Shown piece after piece: positions 4,360-10,098 of a stretch of 64,000 nt of DNA. The stretch comes from Acidimicrobiia bacterium (lineage in GTDB: Bacteria > Actinomycetota > Acidimicrobiia > Spongiisociales > ZC4RG35): contig JANQOU010000006.1 of NCBI GenBank assembly GCA_028285585.1, positions 310,001-374,000 of the forward strand, given 5' to 3'. The first letter of the stretch is position 1. Each line of letters starts with the position of its first letter. The position numbers and the translations under genes were made by a program. The notes beneath the pieces are model-generated. The model was not told where the DNA came from and did no database searches. It saw only the letters and a list, made by a program, of their open reading frames with translations.

Positions 4360-5328
4360 TCAGGAGCCCTGCTCGACGAACGTTTGTGGCCCGTACTCCA
4401 GCGGTCCATCCCAGTCGGTGTCTTGATGCACCAAGGTTGCAGACGTTAAGGCCGCGGTGAACACGGTTGTGCATGTTGCACAACTCAGGTCGACCACAAA
4501 AAAGGTCTCTGGTGGTGCGGCAGGCTCAATCGGGCCGCGAGAGACAATGAGTCGGCGGCCATCAAAGTCGTGGATTCTGACCCATGCCTCATCGTCGGTT
4601 CCGATCTGCTGGTCGCCAATCATCTCACCGGTTTCGTCGGCTATCTGAAGTCGTGCATGCGTTAACACCTCAGTGGGTGTTCCTTCGTCGGCATTTGCCA
4701 GGCTTGGACCTTCAATCCACACAGACCATCCGTTGGCAGCAGACCAGACCTCCGCCCCGTTCTGTTCCACTGCCACGTAGCCATCGAGATCTGGCACTCC
4801 AGTCCCGTCGGAGAGCCGAAAGTGCGCGAACTCTTCGTACCCGAGTGCGGCGACCATCTCCCCTCCAGCGCTGACGACTTCCACTAACCGACCAGGTACC
4901 CCTTGGACGACGAGAACCGGTTCGGCCCTACCTTCGGCAAACCAAAGGAGATTCGACCCCTCAACAAAGACGAGTCCTCCCGCGCGATCGCGTGCGACCG
5001 CTTTGTCGAACTGAGATGATGCTGGCCACACCACCGTTCCGTCCGCCGCCACCAGCCCGTCTCGTCCCAACGTCACCCATTGGTGGGCCGACAAGTCAAG
5101 ATTCGAAGCCGGTTCGGAAGGTGGCAACGATGTTGTAGTCGATGACACATGAGCAGCAGTCGTGGATGCCTGTTCTTCGAGAACAGTGGATGCGCCTGTT
5201 TCGACACCGCCCCCACAAGCAACAAGAAGGCTGAGAACTGCCAAGGAGCCAAGAAACAAACCTCCGCCCACCGCGGGCCGACTCACACACGCCTCAGTGT
5301 CCGGAATCGACTGGATGTCGCCGCTCAT
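4360..5328 (-). CDS. Lipoprotein, possibly beta-propeller-like, function unknown
   Basis: From ATG 5328 the product is 322 residues. It has a signal peptide ending in the lipobox LLVAC followed by GGG, a Ser/Thr-rich linker, then a beta-rich domain with short repeated pieces such as LGRDGLVAADGTVVW and AGGLVFVEGSNLLWF that resemble propeller blades. Two cysteines near the C-terminus (LSCATCTT) could form a local disulfide. A longer reading frame to 5412 would overlap the preceding minus-strand gene by 59 bases without a signal-like N-terminus, so I prefer 5328. It follows the lipoprotein gene 5354-6187 closely and is probably cotranscribed. I do not recognise a named family. Confidence 0.65.
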   Translation of the reverse strand: MSGDIQSIPDTEACVSRPAVGGGLFLGSLAVLSLLVACGGGVETGASTVLEEQASTTAAHVSSTTTSLPPSEPASNLDLSAHQWVTLGRDGLVAADGTVVWPASSQFDKAVARDRAGGLVFVEGSNLLWFAEGRAEPVLVVQGVPGRLVEVVSAGGEMVAALGYEEFAHFRLSDGTGVPDLDGYVAVEQNGAEVWSAANGWSVWIEGPSLANADEGTPTEVLTHARLQIADETGEMIGDQQIGTDDEAWVRIHDFDGRRLIVSRGPIEPAAPPETFFVVDLSCATCTTVFTAALTSATLVHQDTDWDGPLEYGPQTFVEQGS

Positions 5329-5353
5329 ACGTATGAAGGCCGACTGTGCATCT

Positions 5354-6187
5354 TCATCCAGCCACGAGAAACTCGAGTTGCTCTTGGAACACATCAGCGT
5401 GGTCATGAACAAACGAGGGCTCGTACTCAGCAGCCACCTCGCGCATTGCCGCTAGGACCGGCGGTTCGCACTCGAGGTGAGCCGTAGCTATCTCCCTCTC
5501 CAAGTCCTGCAGTGCCGCAAGCTGCGCAGGGCGCTCTTTGACGAGCTGGTACTCGTGCAAGAGCCAGGCAAGAACGTCATCGAGCGTGGAGAAGTCGGGT
5601 AGGACCGAGCTGGCAGTACCACGCACGCAAGCTTCCCATTCCTGTTCCGCGGTGATGACCCGAATATCCGCCGTAACTCGGTTCTTGAGACCATCTACCG
5701 CCTGCTGGAACGGTTTCGGCAACCTAGGCAATGCCTCGCGAACCCGCCGGTCGCAGACACTCAGCGTCTCTGAGTACAGAGTTCTGTGTTGCTGCGACAA
5801 GGATCTTTGATGCTCCTGATTTGGATCTTCTGCATCACGGGTGTGCCGCTCAAATGCGGCAAAAGTTTCATCGTTGGTTGAGATCCCGAAGCCATAGCGG
5901 GTTATGAACTCGGTTCGGTCTACGCCAATGCCGGGCCCGAAGGCCACGGCCTCATACCCAACTGGAGTGAATCGCATGCCGAGCCCTTTCATGCAATCCG
6001 CGACCAGTTGCTGCTCACGATCATGAACCTCCTGAGCGAGCTGCCGCTCTGCGTCAAGATCACCCCACGGGACCAGAACCCCAAGGATGGCTCTTTCGTC
6101 CAACTCCGGATTCGCTACAGACGTACATGCTGCGAAAAGCAGCAGGGTGGCCACCAGCGAAGCCAAAAGGCGATGCGGTGCTTCCAT
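5354..6187 (-). CDS. Lipoprotein, paralogue of 239-1132
   Basis: The 277-residue protein starts at ATG 6187 after a very good ribosome site (AGGAGGT). Its signal peptide ends in the lipobox LLFAAC followed by TS. The mature part repeats the layout of the lipoprotein at 239-1132: a cysteine before an aromatic/Pro segment (ADCMKGLGMRFTP), a YGFGIST motif, a Ser-rich turn before a helix (SLSQQHRTLYSETL), a WEACV segment and a late LEREIATAHLEC segment. These shared cysteines suggest conserved disulfides in an exported helical domain. Downstream on the same strand is another lipoprotein gene. The biochemical role is unknown. Confidence 0.75.
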   Translation of the reverse strand: MEAPHRLLASLVATLLLFAACTSVANPELDERAILGVLVPWGDLDAERQLAQEVHDREQQLVADCMKGLGMRFTPVGYEAVAFGPGIGVDRTEFITRYGFGISTNDETFAAFERHTRDAEDPNQEHQRSLSQQHRTLYSETLSVCDRRVREALPRLPKPFQQAVDGLKNRVTADIRVITAEQEWEACVRGTASSVLPDFSTLDDVLAWLLHEYQLVKERPAQLAALQDLEREIATAHLECEPPVLAAMREVAAEYEPSFVHDHADVFQEQLEFLVAG

Positions 6188-6273: not shown

Positions 6274-6990
6274 TCAGTCGATCGGCACTAGGTACACGGT
6301 CTCGGTTGTCTCGTCGAGTGAGAAACTGGCGCAACGTCTTTCGGGAGTCGTTGGTTGCGTCGTCATCTGCCACGAAGCCAAGCCACTTTCGTCGAGGACT
6401 CGTCGCACCTTCTGTGCCGCATCATCCATGGAGATGCAGCTGTCCGACGAGAAGTAGTCGACTAAGTCAGCCTCGACTCTGCGTATCAGATCTGCATGTC
6501 CCTGGCTGGAAGGGTCGGGGCGGGCGAGTCCAAGTCGGTCGCATGTCGACCCGTCGTCCGTGGGGAACACCGCCAAGGCTCCGTTCTCTTTCACGCAAGC
6601 AGTAAGCGGCGGGACAAACCCCGGAGGCCCGAAGTCCTCATTGACCAGGACCGCATCCGACCATGCGGATTCGCAGGCCGCGGCGGTGGCGTCGGTGCCA
6701 CTCGCCGCTACTGCTATGTCGGCGTTGAGGTCAACCGACCGATAGCAACTGATCGCAGTGGCTATCTGAATGGGCCGAGTCAACACGATGGCAGCTGCGG
6801 TGGTCAACACCAGGAGGGCGGCCAAGATGATGGCGAGCCTCAGCGACTGGCGGCTGAATATGCCGGACTCCGTCGTCGTGACTTTGTTGAAAATGAGTTG
6901 GGCCCGCGCCGAATCGGGACCATCGACATCCCCCGTGTCAATCGGGTTCGTTGCCCGAAGACGGGCTAGTCCGTCGTGTTGATCGCTCAT
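6274..6990 (-). CDS. Membrane-anchored six-cysteine protein paired with sigma factor (putative anti-sigma)
   Basis: The 238-residue protein has a cytoplasmic N-terminus of about 48 residues (including LRATNPIDTGDV), one membrane helix (about 49-71) and an external domain with six cysteines beginning SCYRSVDL. There is no HxxxCxxC zinc motif, so it is not a classical ZAS anti-sigma factor. Its ATG overlaps the stop of the sigma gene as ATGA, which implies translational coupling and a partner role. The protein at 8876-9598 has the same architecture with all six cysteines aligned (CY-VDL, ACES/ACTS, TACV/VGCV, STC-LGL, SCIS/QCRD, CASFS). Anti-sigma or sensory function is inferred from position and topology only. 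Confidence 0.7.
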   Translation of the reverse strand: MSDQHDGLARLRATNPIDTGDVDGPDSARAQLIFNKVTTTESGIFSRQSLRLAIILAALLVLTTAAAIVLTRPIQIATAISCYRSVDLNADIAVAASGTDATAAACESAWSDAVLVNEDFGPPGFVPPLTACVKENGALAVFPTDDGSTCDRLGLARPDPSSQGHADLIRRVEADLVDYFSSDSCISMDDAAQKVRRVLDESGLASWQMTTQPTTPERRCASFSLDETTETVYLVPID

Positions 6991-7598
6991 CGGTGAGTGT
7001 CCTGGTCAGGTTCGTTTCTTTGACCTTCTGAAGGTTTGTGTCTGGATTCGCCTTCTTGTTGCTGTTCGGCCACGGCCAACTCGACGTTCAACCGCTCGCG
7101 GGCGCGATAGAGCATCGACCTCACCCGCCGCACTGGGGTGTTCAACACAACCCCGATCTCCTCGTGGCTCAGCTCTTCGAACGCTGCCAGCCGAAGAATC
7201 TCTTGATCCTTGATCGACAGTCGTGACATGGCCGTCCAAACGAGTTCATACTCATCGCGCTTCTCAGCCGACCAGGACGGATCAACAGGAGCGGGCTTAG
7301 TGGGCAATGTGCCCTGAGCCTTCTCTCTAAGCAGCAACAACCGCCGGTTGGAGCGCCACCTGTTGTGCATTTGCTTACGGGCGACCCCATAGAGCCACGC
7401 CTGAGGCTCGTCGGTGCCCAAGAAGGTCTTGACCCGCCTCCAAGCCACCGTGTACGTCTCGGCTACCACATCGTGCGCATCTTCGAGATCGACGGTACGG
7501 CGCAATACGTATGCAAGCGTCTTGGAGTACGTCTCGCGATAGGCATCTTCGAAGGCCGCTCGGTCGCTCTCGGCACGGGACGAGGTCACGCGACGCAT
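6987..7598 (-). CDS. ECF-type RNA polymerase sigma factor
   Basis: The 203-residue protein has a region 2 segment (FEDAYRETYSKTLAYVLRR, then DAHDVVAETYTVAWRR and AWLYGVARKQMHNRWRSNRR) and a region 4 helix-turn-helix (LSIKDQEILRLAAFEELSHEEIGVVLNTPVRRVRS, quoted here in parts by position 140-175). I chose ATG 7598, which has GGAAG five bases upstream, over an upstream in-frame codon at 7616. The stop overlaps the start of the six-cysteine membrane protein, forming a sigma/anti-sigma-like cassette. It diverges from the crystallin-like gene at 7673, and only 74 bases separate the two starts, so it may control that gene and itself. Paralogue of 8282-8812. Confidence 0.88.
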   Translation of the reverse strand: MRRVTSSRAESDRAAFEDAYRETYSKTLAYVLRRTVDLEDAHDVVAETYTVAWRRVKTFLGTDEPQAWLYGVARKQMHNRWRSNRRLLLLREKAQGTLPTKPAPVDPSWSAEKRDEYELVWTAMSRLSIKDQEILRLAAFEELSHEEIGVVLNTPVRRVRSMLYRARERLNVELAVAEQQQEGESRHKPSEGQRNEPDQDTHR

Positions 7599-7672
7599 GA
7601 CCGCTTCCGGACACATATGTCATGTAGATGCAAACCGCTTCTACGGCCGCTTCTTTGAAAGGGAGAGAACAA

Positions 7673-8263
7673 GTGCCTGGAAAGATAGATGTCCTTGCGA
7701 GCTGGACTCTGATGGTCAGTCTGGTGCTGATCTCTGGTCAAGGGACAGATGAGACGTACAAACAAGAACAGATCACAACCGAGGGAAACGCAGTCTTCGC
7801 GACCTTTGCAGGAGAGAGCATCAACCTCGCCGAGAGCTGGGGTGGAGCTCGAGCATGCCTCATCTGGCAAGAAGTTGGTGTTTCTGAGTGTTTCGAGTCG
7901 GAGGCCGAGATGGATCGGCGGATTGCGGAATTGGAAAACGAGTACGTCAAGGCAGAGGCGAGTCAGAGAATCAGACGTGTGGCCTCTTCGACATGTTCGA
8001 GTTTTCTTCGCCTGTACGACTTGACGGCGTACAGGTCGCCTGTGCTCTACCTGCGTGACCGTTATCAGTGGCTGAACCTTTCCTCGTATGGATTCAACAA
8101 CAGGACTTCTTCGTACAAGGTCGGAGCGTGCAACTCGGTTTTTGCTGACTACTCGAATGGCGGAGGTGCCTTGTATCCGACCAACCTGACGCAGGCCTAC
8201 GATCAGGCTTCATCGATGAACAGTGGCTGGAACAACGACGTTTCTTCGGTCTATATCGGCTGA
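7673..8263 (+). CDS. Secreted beta-gamma-crystallin-like protein with two calcium-clamp motifs
   Basis: The start is GTG 7673, preceded by GGGAGAG; in-frame ATG 7628 has no such site. The 196-residue product has a short hydrophobic export segment (about residues 8-22), a charged helical middle (about 75-103) and a C-terminal crystallin-like domain (about 108-196) containing LRLYDLTAY, LSSYGFNNRTSSYK and GWNNDVSS. The hexamers NNRTSS (142-147) and NNDVSS (187-192) both fit the N/D-N/D-x-x-S/T-S calcium clamp of microbial beta-gamma-crystallins. The related peptidase-inhibitor I36 fold is an alternative label. It sits between two divergent sigma cassettes, so it may be their shared output. Exact role unknown. 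Confidence 0.72.
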   Translation: MPGKIDVLASWTLMVSLVLISGQGTDETYKQEQITTEGNAVFATFAGESINLAESWGGARACLIWQEVGVSECFESEAEMDRRIAELENEYVKAEASQRIRRVASSTCSSFLRLYDLTAYRSPVLYLRDRYQWLNLSSYGFNNRTSSYKVGACNSVFADYSNGGGALYPTNLTQAYDQASSMNSGWNNDVSSVYIG

Positions 8264-8281
8264 CGAACAACAAAGGGGAAA

Positions 8282-8812
8282 GTGGCGGCAAACCTATCCG
8301 ATCAGAAGGCTGCTCGGTTTGAAGATCTCTATCGAGAGACCTACGAGCCAGTTGTGGCATATTGCCGCCGTCGGGCACGGTCACATCACGAAGCCGAAGA
8401 GGTGGTCTCCACAACGTTCCTGGTCGCGTGGAGACGCTTCGATGACTTCGCATCAGCCGAACTACCCCTCGCTTGGTTGTACGCCGTCGCGTACCGCAGT
8501 CTCTCCAACCAACGACGCGGATGGGGTCGCCGTTCCGCCCTCAAGAAGCGCCTTCAGATAGAGGGAACGGGTTCGGTTCAGTCCCCAGATCGTGAAGCGG
8601 AGGCACGGCTCGAGGCCTCCAGAGCGTTTGAAGCCCTGGCAACCCTCTCTAACTACGATCAGGAGATAATCCGGCTAGCGGCCTTTGAAGACCTCGCCTA
8701 CGAAGCAATCGGTGTCGTCGTAGGCAAGTCTGTGGATGCGGTGAGGTCTGACATATTCCGTGCCCGGCAACGCCTCAGAAGGGCTTTTGATGGCGGAGGG
8801 AGCGGCTCATGA
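8282..8812 (+). CDS. ECF-type RNA polymerase sigma factor (paralogue of 6987-7598)
   Basis: The 176-residue protein starts at GTG 8282 after AAGGGGA and is close to the preceding crystallin-like gene (18 bases), so cotranscription is likely. Region 2 is visible in ARFEDLYRETYEPVVAY and AEEVVSTTFLVAWRRFDDF, followed by LAWLYAVAYRSLSNQRR. Region 4 includes LSNYDQEIIRLAAFEDLAYE and GVVVGKSVDAVRSDIFRARQ. It resembles the minus-strand sigma factor at 6987-7598 across both regions, which indicates duplication of the cassette. The gene for its presumed membrane partner begins 63 bases downstream. Confidence 0.88.
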   Translation: MAANLSDQKAARFEDLYRETYEPVVAYCRRRARSHHEAEEVVSTTFLVAWRRFDDFASAELPLAWLYAVAYRSLSNQRRGWGRRSALKKRLQIEGTGSVQSPDREAEARLEASRAFEALATLSNYDQEIIRLAAFEDLAYEAIGVVVGKSVDAVRSDIFRARQRLRRAFDGGGSGS

Positions 8813-8875
8813 CTCCGATGTTGCAGGTTTCTCTCGATCATCTTGCGTACTGCATCTCGGTGAGGAGGTCGTTGC

Positions 8876-9598
8876 GTGCCTGAACGCGATCCCTACGAGA
8901 TTCTGAGGGACAACGATCCTGTGGACTTGACTCGCGTGGCAAGCAGTCGATCCCTTGAGGCCGACGCTCTACTCACCATGATCACAACACAAGGCAAATC
9001 GCCGTGGTCCCGCCGTCCACTACGCATCGCATTAGCAGTGGCCGCCGTGTTCTTGCTGGTAGCGGCGACCTGGATCGTGTACAGGAGTGTTACCAACGTG
9101 CAAGGAGTGTTGTGTTATTCGACTGTCGATCTCGACTCCGACAGAGCGGCCGTTCGACCCGAAGACACTCTCAGCACGCAGGCTTGCACATCCCCTTGGG
9201 AGGAGGGCGTGTTGACGAACCCGAATGTGGAGCAAGGAGAAGTGCCTCCATTCGTGGGATGCGTGACAGAGGAGGGAATTCTCGCGGTGTTTCCATCAGC
9301 AAATGCGAGTACCTGTGCATCACTCGGATTGGCACCGTTTGAAGAAGGAACCTTAGAAAGTGACTCATCTGCGGCCATCGAACTCCAAGACCAGCTCGTC
9401 AAGTACTTCTCGGCGGGCCAATGCAGAGACGTGGACATCGCCGCCGCCGATATCGGAAGAATGCTGTCAGAGGCCGGCGATGCCTTCGAGGGCTGGCGTA
9501 TCGAGGCTCACGCGGCCACGTCTTCTCGGCCCTGTGCCAGCTTCTCTATGGACTACAGCAACAGCACCCTGTACATAATCCCGATTCCGGAACTCTGA
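8876..9598 (+). CDS. Membrane-anchored six-cysteine protein (putative anti-sigma), paralogue of 6274-6990
   Basis: The 240-residue protein starts at GTG 8876 after GAGGAGG. It has a cytoplasmic N-terminus with YEILRDNDPVDLTRV, a membrane helix (about residues 49-70, LRIALAVAAVFLLVAATWIVY) and an external domain beginning VLCYSTVDLDSD. Six external cysteines align one-to-one with those of the protein at 6274-6990, and the protein closes with CASFSMDYSNSTLYIIPI. No zinc-binding anti-sigma motif is present. Position after a sigma gene suggests that it holds or releases that sigma factor in response to an external or redox signal. This is inference; the family name is not known to me. Confidence 0.7.
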   Translation: MPERDPYEILRDNDPVDLTRVASSRSLEADALLTMITTQGKSPWSRRPLRIALAVAAVFLLVAATWIVYRSVTNVQGVLCYSTVDLDSDRAAVRPEDTLSTQACTSPWEEGVLTNPNVEQGEVPPFVGCVTEEGILAVFPSANASTCASLGLAPFEEGTLESDSSAAIELQDQLVKYFSAGQCRDVDIAAADIGRMLSEAGDAFEGWRIEAHAATSSRPCASFSMDYSNSTLYIIPIPEL

Positions 9599-9700
9599 CC
9601 ACACAACCACTTGCATGGATTCTCGGCAAACCACGGCATTTTCGTCGTGGCGTTCATGTGGTGGTCGTGTCCGGTTGCGGCCTTGCGTTGCGCAAATGAC

Positions 9701-9714
9701 GCGACTTAAGTCGC
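9701..9714. promoter_or_regulatory. 14-bp perfect palindrome, possible operator
   Basis: GCGACTTAAGTCGC at 9701-9714 is a perfect palindrome in the 137-base gap before the small helix-turn-helix gene. It lies 21 bases upstream of ATG 9736, where a repressor or autoregulator could bind. A smaller inverted pair TTGCG/CGCAA at 9683-9695 is just upstream. No binding protein can be assigned from sequence. Confidence 0.35.
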
Positions 9715-9735
9715 CGTCGGGACACTTCTATAGCG

Positions 9736-10098
9736 ATGGGAAGTCCCGGCAGACAGCAAACCTCACCTGCGGCAAGGCCACATGAGGTGCTCGAAGTCGC
9801 CCCAGAGCTCGACGCCATCGAGATCAGCATCATCAAGAACCTCCTGGTCAGAAACAGCAAGGCCGAGGCTTTTGCTGCGGCAGGCATCTCTGACAGACAC
9901 GGACGGCGATTGCTCAAGCGGCTTCGTGAGAGCTACGACGTCCCCAACACCTACGCCCTCGTTGCCACCCTTGTCACATCGGACGATCCGAACGGAGGGT
10001 CAGGACTGTGTCAGGTCGAAACTCACGTCGCGACACAAGACGTCATCCGGACACAGACTAAGAAACAAGCGGGGACGGGAACAACGGACCGCGACTGA
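9736..10098 (+). CDS. Small LuxR-like helix-turn-helix protein
   Basis: The 120-residue product has a central segment (about residues 27-80) with the spacing of a LuxR/NarL C-terminal helix-turn-helix: IEISIIKNLLVRNSKAEAFA, then GISDRHGRRLLKRLRESYDV and PNTYALVATLV, close to the usual pattern of recognition helix, KLGV-like turn and QAV-like last helix. No receiver or ligand domain is attached, and the N- and C-terminal tails look disordered. Nothing resembling a good ribosome site precedes ATG 9736; a TATAGC box at 9729-9734 is too close for a normal leader. A palindrome at 9701-9714 may be its operator. Possible autoregulated DNA-binding protein; coding status is moderately supported. Confidence 0.5.
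   Translation: MGSPGRQQTSPAARPHEVLEVAPELDAIEISIIKNLLVRNSKAEAFAAAGISDRHGRRLLKRLRESYDVPNTYALVATLVTSDDPNGGSGLCQVETHVATQDVIRTQTKKQAGTGTTDRD

Follow-up and report, generated by a model that had tools for sequence, protein, structure and literature searches.

Two genes for extracytoplasmic function (ECF) sigma factors, each followed by a gene for a single-pass membrane protein with six cysteines, lie on opposite strands around a gene for a secreted betagamma-crystallin-like protein in a 64,000-nucleotide stretch (hereafter the window) of contig JANQOU010000006.1, from the 2.6-Mb genome of an Acidimicrobiia bacterium. We propose, with a probability of roughly two in three, that this locus encodes a signalling module in which an ECF sigma factor would be controlled by a class-II-like anti-sigma factor and the secreted crystallin would be the main product. 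The combination of genes, the six-cysteine sensor domain and the crystallin output all seem to be new, the parts being of known kinds; as the original prediction had assumed, no description of this gene set was found in the open-licence literature on ECF and anti-sigma factors, bacterial crystallins, I36, CU044_5270 or Acidimicrobiia.

Two gene pairs and their linkage to sigma factors

The genes that form the core of the locus are the following.

6274..6990, minus strand: six-cysteine single-pass membrane protein 1, a putative anti-sigma factor (frame, alignment, profile and homologue linkage)
6987..7616, minus strand: ECF sigma factor 1 (Pfam Sigma70_r2 and Sigma70_r4_2; TIGR02937; an alternative start may be the ATG at 7598)
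7673..8263, plus strand: secreted betagamma-crystallin-like protein (likely GTG start, signal-peptide-like hydrophobic N-terminus, clamps, homologues)
8282..8812, plus strand: ECF sigma factor 2 (Pfam Sigma70_r2 and Sigma70_r4_2)
8876..9598, plus strand: six-cysteine single-pass membrane protein 2, a putative anti-sigma factor (frame, alignment, homologues, structure model)

Both sigma proteins (176 and 209 amino acids, 43% identical to each other) match Sigma70_r2 and Sigma70_r4_2 above the Pfam cut-off as well as TIGR02937 above its own, and no region 3 family is found among the Pfam matches of either, which assigns them to the ECF type. The membrane proteins are 36% identical; each has one hydrophobic stretch near residue 50, preceded by basic residues, and exactly six cysteines, all of them C-terminal to this stretch and all aligned between the two proteins. 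The zinc anti-sigma (ZAS) motif HxxxCxxC is absent from both and their cytoplasmic part is only about 45 residues long, which sets them apart from class I ZAS proteins; no Pfam or NCBIfam family matches them above the cut-off. Frames, Pfam matches and alignment thus agree with what had been predicted for these pairs, including the CYxxVDL, STCxxLGL and CASFS blocks of the cysteine proteins. On the minus strand, the genes of sigma 1 and cysteine protein 1 overlap by 4 bases, and on the plus strand the crystallin, sigma 2 and cysteine protein 2 genes follow one another with gaps of 18 and 63 bases. The crystallin gene does lie between opposite-strand pairs, as had been noted, and this can be refined: because it is on the same strand as the sigma 2 gene and only 18 bases from it, it probably forms an operon together with sigma 2 and cysteine protein 2.

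The idea that the membrane proteins are anti-sigma factors was assessed by their linkage to sigma genes elsewhere. A profile was built from 12 homologues, in all of which the six cysteines are invariant. Run over two overlapping draws, of 395 genomes from the class and 396 from the phylum, it matched in 45 and 18 genomes, respectively; relatives in named records are mostly from Acidimicrobiia or Actinomycetota. Forty loci were fetched with their flanks out of all the places matched, weaker places matching in the tail only being left out. These loci and the window together hold 42 profile-matching frames. For 39 of them an ECF sigma gene lies immediately upstream on the same strand, and frequently the two genes overlap by 4 bases. 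The three exceptions are a fragment in L095, the second half of the gene that is split in L096, and a protein with a single lobe in L109, and all 25 frames with the complete set of six cysteines stand behind a sigma gene, the one in L093 being broken. A wide occurrence without sigma neighbours was not seen at these loci, and the position behind an ECF sigma gene is thus upheld. Some of these places deserve a remark of their own: L110 is a short remnant only, the six-cysteine gene of L096 (G061:C148, 2315-3029, minus strand) lies in two frames and is thus either a broken gene or a sequencing error, and the four-cysteine, one-lobe relative in L109 (G567:C43, 5008-5517, minus strand) has neither the tail motif nor a sigma gene and is located near a large protein-kinase-like gene.

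In another 12 fetched relatives, the likeness to the family is confined to the cytoplasmic tail (LRxxNPVD...) and the membrane helix, at about positions 3 to 80 of the model. They carry other outer domains (Gmad2 with Germane in one case, a domain like that of SCO4651 lipoproteins in another), and all 12 are located behind ECF sigma genes. A constant tail beside sigma genes, combined with changing outer domains, is what an anti-sigma factor predicts; together, the two counts (39/42 and 12/12) support the view that these membrane proteins behave like anti-sigma factors, with binding and inhibition of sigma as its predictions. In L022 (G080:C32, 1501-3210), the tail motif, here LRSTNPV, was seen by eye to be fused to an apparent beta-propeller outer domain.

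On the other hand, the cysteine protein might be a sigma-dependent envelope protein which is merely co-transcribed with the sigma gene and does not hold its product. It has no known anti-sigma domain, and its gene often has a predicted promoter of its own (see below), both of which would fit this idea. However, the tail and membrane helix are the part most widely held in common, while the outer domains vary, and at the fetched loci this part is always found behind ECF sigma genes, just as a sigma-binding tail predicts; we thus consider mere co-transcription quite improbable.

As for the descent of the two pairs, the original prediction spoke of a duplicated system. The pairs are indeed paralogous, but in the trees (which leave out the broken genes of L093 and L096) the two window cassettes do not join, and sigma 2 clusters with sigma factors from other genera (L092, L088). 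A local duplication of the cassette is not supported by these trees, though most of their forks are weak. The duplication appears to be old rather than local, and the window holds, judging from the trees, two sigma/anti-sigma pairs of separate old descent, now placed around one crystallin gene and a common intergenic space.

Outer domain of the six-cysteine proteins

The structure model of a cysteine protein contains helices at residues 6-12 and 27-38 in the tail, followed by one at 46-69; the predicted local distance difference test score (pLDDT) of the tail is low, and no sequence match of the tail to class II anti-sigma factors was found. Residues 77-238, the outer domain, are modelled as two lobes with pLDDT mostly about 90. 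Modelling of this domain, which had been suggested earlier, thus gave a well-predicted outer part and no match to a known fold: the profile found nothing credible among sequences of solved structures, and the best Foldseek hit of the model in the PDB had an E value of 1.1, such an absence of a match being no proof of a new fold. A likeness to a phage tail sheath (VIA-align best Z 4.9 over 66 residues, root mean square deviation 3.1) was judged to be a chance one.

In a wider set of 45 aligned stretches, the six cysteines are kept in 25; among the others there are tail-only relatives, pieces of split genes, fragments, second stretches and two members from which one cysteine pair is missing. Together with the 12 homologues of the profile, this speaks against a chance pattern. 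Where cysteines are missing, they are missing pairwise: the Streptacidiphilus protein (L081) lacks lobe 2 together with cysteines five and six, L109 is likewise without lobe 2 and its two cysteines, and in L108 the third and fourth are missing together. Lobe 2 is also found twice in L107 and L108, each copy with a cysteine pair of its own. As losses and duplications both affect cysteine pairs along with entire lobes, the six look like three structural disulfides bracing a two-lobed outer domain. Judging from the joint losses, the third would pair with the fourth and the fifth with the sixth, which leaves the first for the second. Redox sensing, proposed for these proteins earlier, is thus left without support. 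One might still argue that six invariant outer cysteines could act as a redox switch, or, in view of the calcium clamps in the crystallin, that the pair senses calcium, but both the pairwise losses and the added lobe with its own pair fit structural disulfides, and the first clamp is kept in just 10 of 22 crystallins. We find a redox or calcium sensor improbable, though for calcium the clamps give a mixed picture, the second being kept in 19 of the 22.

The crystallin and its promoter-like element

The window crystallin has two clamp motifs, NNRTSS and NNDVSS, which fit the pattern (N/D)(N/D)xx(S/T)S. Among 22 aligned crystallins the second clamp is kept in 19 and both clamps in 8, and four cysteines are kept in every one of them. 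No Pfam family reaches its cut-off for the window protein, its relatives have weak matches below the cut-off to Inhibitor_I36 and Crystall, no credible match was found among sequences of solved structures, and the structure model is poor (pLDDT 47.8).

The occurrence of this gene is closely bound to the loci described above. A query with the crystallin alone, run over 247 genomes of the class, gave 17 matches in 13 of them, and a comparison of coordinates revealed that all 17 lie within sigma/six-cysteine loci. Of 24 loci with the full cysteine set, 21 have the crystallin (it was not found at L093, L104 and L107), versus none of the 12 tail-only loci, and it is either first in the row, before the sigma and cysteine genes, or last. 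A profile of 22 members run over 296 genomes of the phylum gave nine matches in 7 genomes, six of them at sigma/six-cysteine loci, two in genome G503 and one, a weak one, in G432, near which no sigma gene was found. One of the G503 relatives is located beside a sigma gene whose tail-type membrane partner has an outer domain other than the six-cysteine one, and the other lies 2.2 kb from a sigma gene. The crystallin's primary tie is thus to the sigma system, and in nearly all cases it also goes with the six-cysteine domain.

Such a tight linkage (21/24 versus 0/12) could also mean that the secreted and possibly calcium-loaded crystallin is a ligand or co-sensor, which would bind to the six-cysteine domain and thereby control the sigma factor in an autocrine loop. 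Both partners are outside the membrane, the crystallin has four invariant cysteines, and RsiV, according to an excerpt of PMC5014341, provides a case of an anti-sigma factor being the receptor for a secreted protein. However, one G503 crystallin pairs with an anti-sigma factor of another outer domain, L104 and L107 have the six cysteines and no crystallin that could be found, and co-regulation alone accounts for the linkage. We regard a ligand role as unlikely, albeit less so than the other alternatives. A calcium-dependent version of the loop, in which the window would hold two receptors and their sigma factors listening to one common crystallin, appears somewhat less likely still.

The view that the crystallin is an output of the sigma factor is based on a promoter-like element. 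It consists of GCGACG or GAAACG (with variants), exactly 12 bases and CGGACAC, and is found 42-81 nucleotides (nt) before the start of 13 crystallin genes. A matrix was made from 13 of 15 upstream regions; L103 was dropped because it has CGGAAAC, and the region seen from sigma 1 because it coincides with that of the window crystallin. The crystallins of L085 and L096 run to the contig end. No site scoring at least 13.5 was found at the loci where the crystallin is last (L097, L098, L100-L102, L105), nor at L103 and L106. When each region was left out in turn, the crystallin site was still the best of its locus in 12 of 13 cases, L079 having a higher-scoring site back to back with it. The sites of the window are listed below.

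7586..7625, plus strand: GCGACG-N12-CGGACAC before the crystallin gene, overlapping the 5' end of the sigma 1 gene (matrix score 41.2, leave-one-out 33.6)
7027..7066, minus strand: weaker promoter-like site, 47 nt upstream of cysteine gene 1 and within the coding sequence of sigma 1 (matrix score 11.0)
9656..9695, minus strand: promoter-like site not clearly followed by a gene, paired back to back with the site below (matrix score 23.5)
9697..9736, plus strand: promoter-like site before the small helix-turn-helix (HTH) gene (matrix score 17.0)
10026..10065, plus strand: promoter-like site, with an ABC transporter ATPase gene about 190 nt downstream (matrix score 22.5)
5286..5325, minus strand: promoter-like site in the region where a putative lipoprotein gene (frame 4360-5412) begins (matrix score 16.0)
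9736..10098, plus strand: small HTH protein (relatives adjoin crystallin genes elsewhere; the window copy is without a Pfam family)

With the window left out of the matrix, its six best sites (33.6 to 11.9) all fall at 5.2-10.1 kb of the 64 kb. Random sequence of the same kind gave best scores of 8.0 to 13.8 in six trials, and the sixth site (11.9) is thus, taken alone, within chance. Over the whole genome, the exact pattern GSRAYN13CGGACAC occurs seven times, four of them at this locus, versus once for the reversed control; this degenerate pattern was used because a three-mismatch search (505 matches versus 347 in the control) gave a list that missed two two-mismatch sites of the window. Sites before the cysteine gene score at least 8 in 11 of 17 cases, several of which are close relatives, versus none of 3000 random stretches, and these scoring sites are located 43-74 nt before the gene, inside or just past the end of the sigma gene.

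The -35 half of the element varies with the recognition helix of the neighbouring sigma factor. Where it reads GAAA (L083, L086, L099) the helix has VRV or VAV, and where it reads GCGA (eight loci including the window) the helix has VR[ST], VKS or IRS; L087 (GTCACG, VRT) is an exception, and the count omits L079, whose sigma is outside that alignment, and L103. An excerpt of PMC6713349 reports that residues of this helix contact base -34 in SigW, and that SigZ, with C at -34, has Ser there. The covariation fits a promoter read by sigma and is only suggestive, since the loci are partly related.

It is also conceivable that the element is not a sigma promoter and that it is bound by the neighbouring LuxR/HTH regulator. 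HTH genes adjoin the crystallin gene in the window as well as in seven other loci that were fetched (the L090 copy has a GerE domain), with sites in between; these sites are often back to back, and in several of them a TGTCCG-N4-CGGACA dyad can be seen by eye. On the other hand, secondary sites keep GCGACG/GAAACG-N12-CGGACAC but, by eye, not the dyad half, the -35 half tracks the sigma helix, and L083 and L094 have sites and no HTH match. A regulator site appears improbable to us, and the conserved element with its varying -35 part supports, as had been predicted, the crystallin as a sigma-dependent secreted output, whichever of the two window sigma factors may read its promoter.

The genes behind other sites code for an I36-type inhibitor in L089, which passes the Pfam cut-off, a matrixin-like protease in L086, which falls narrowly short of its cut-off, and a number of secreted proteins with no assigned family. 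Two more observations concern such sites. Behind one that scores 14.7, L194 (G061:C9, 973-1736, minus strand) has short tandem peptides that resemble one another (TPA..KTAL.GAL..CW.GS.Y.C), which are possible ribosomal-peptide precursors, and beyond cysteine gene 1 the window (4360-6187, minus strand) contains two putative lipoprotein genes without a family, one with a promoter-like site at its start.

Proposed module in the light of known systems

We thus propose that the six-cysteine protein is a membrane-anchored anti-sigma factor, whose two-helix cytoplasmic tail of about 45 residues would hold the ECF sigma factor as class II CnrY does, while one helix spans the membrane and the two-lobed outer domain with its three disulfides would take up an extracellular signal. 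On this signal the sigma factor would be released, probably by regulated proteolysis; the host genome has Peptidase_M50 genes, but so do 14 of 14 control genomes. The freed sigma factor would then read the promoters with the observed GCGACG/GAAACG-N12-CGGACAC element. As this element precedes the crystallin operon, a positive loop might result, and as it often precedes the anti-sigma gene, a negative one as well. The same sigma factor may also drive further secreted proteins (the I36-type inhibitor, the matrixin-like protease and small proteins without a family) and the LuxR/HTH regulator.

Several points weigh against this proposal. The tail matches no anti-sigma family in Pfam or NCBIfam, and the confidence of its predicted helices is low (pLDDT 50-60). 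One crystallin relative, that of G503, has a partner without the six-cysteine domain, as described above. There is no such promoter upstream of sigma 1 itself (best score 3.8), nor before cysteine gene 2 of the window (-11.8), and some of the -35/helix cases stem from closely related loci, so that they do not count as independent. Finally, a similar pattern occurs 18 times in ten genomes of the same family without the six-cysteine protein, versus 50 times in ten genomes with it (17 of these 50 at sigma/six-cysteine loci, as counted from the listed places), and 2 of 10 loci fetched from the former genomes hold sites scoring above 12 (28.6 and 16.2). The element is thus not exclusive to this sigma type, and other sigma factors may read similar sites. 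The higher of these two scores belongs to a GAAACG-type element in L228 (G125:C36, 1490-1529, minus strand), where another sigma factor may use the same promoter code.

If the proposal is true, it would link an uncharacterised sensor domain of anti-sigma factors, whose model gave no fold match in this analysis, to a secreted crystallin, a kind of protein whose role in bacteria is mostly unknown, and one sigma-binding tail would be combined with many outer sensors in Actinomycetota. It also gives a concrete, testable promoter code and a regulon of secreted proteins.

Among described families, the actinobacterial NCBIfam family CU044_5270 is weakly similar to the tail and membrane helix of 4 of 10 tail-only relatives, but far under its cut-off (19-21 versus 100 bits), and it does not match the window proteins. 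The crystallin resembles I36 and bacterial betagamma-crystallins in that its relatives match them weakly and the window copy has the double clamp; unlike them, it stays below the Pfam cut-offs and has an extra N-terminal segment, FEGxxIDL..C..ECF. Like RseA and RsiW, which belong to class I (class I anti-sigma domain, ASDI, zinc or non-zinc), the six-cysteine proteins are membrane-anchored and co-encoded with an ECF sigma factor. Unlike class I, whose anti-sigma domain averages 101 residues according to an excerpt of PMC7406223, they have a cytoplasmic part of about 45 residues and no HxxxCxxC. RsiV, the lysozyme receptor and anti-sigma factor of SigV, is described in parts of PMC5014341 and PMC4183432 as having an outer domain that reads an outside protein. 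No family match to the RsiV domains was found in the cysteine proteins. CnrY has one membrane helix and an outer part, and to our knowledge it is without a six-cysteine domain. Nor was a common sequence family found between it and the present proteins, and it is not known to have a crystallin partner. The likeness to this class II anti-sigma factor lies in the short two-helix cytoplasmic part, which holds the ECF sigma factor in CnrY, as an excerpt of PMC7406223 describes, and which is predicted for the tail here.

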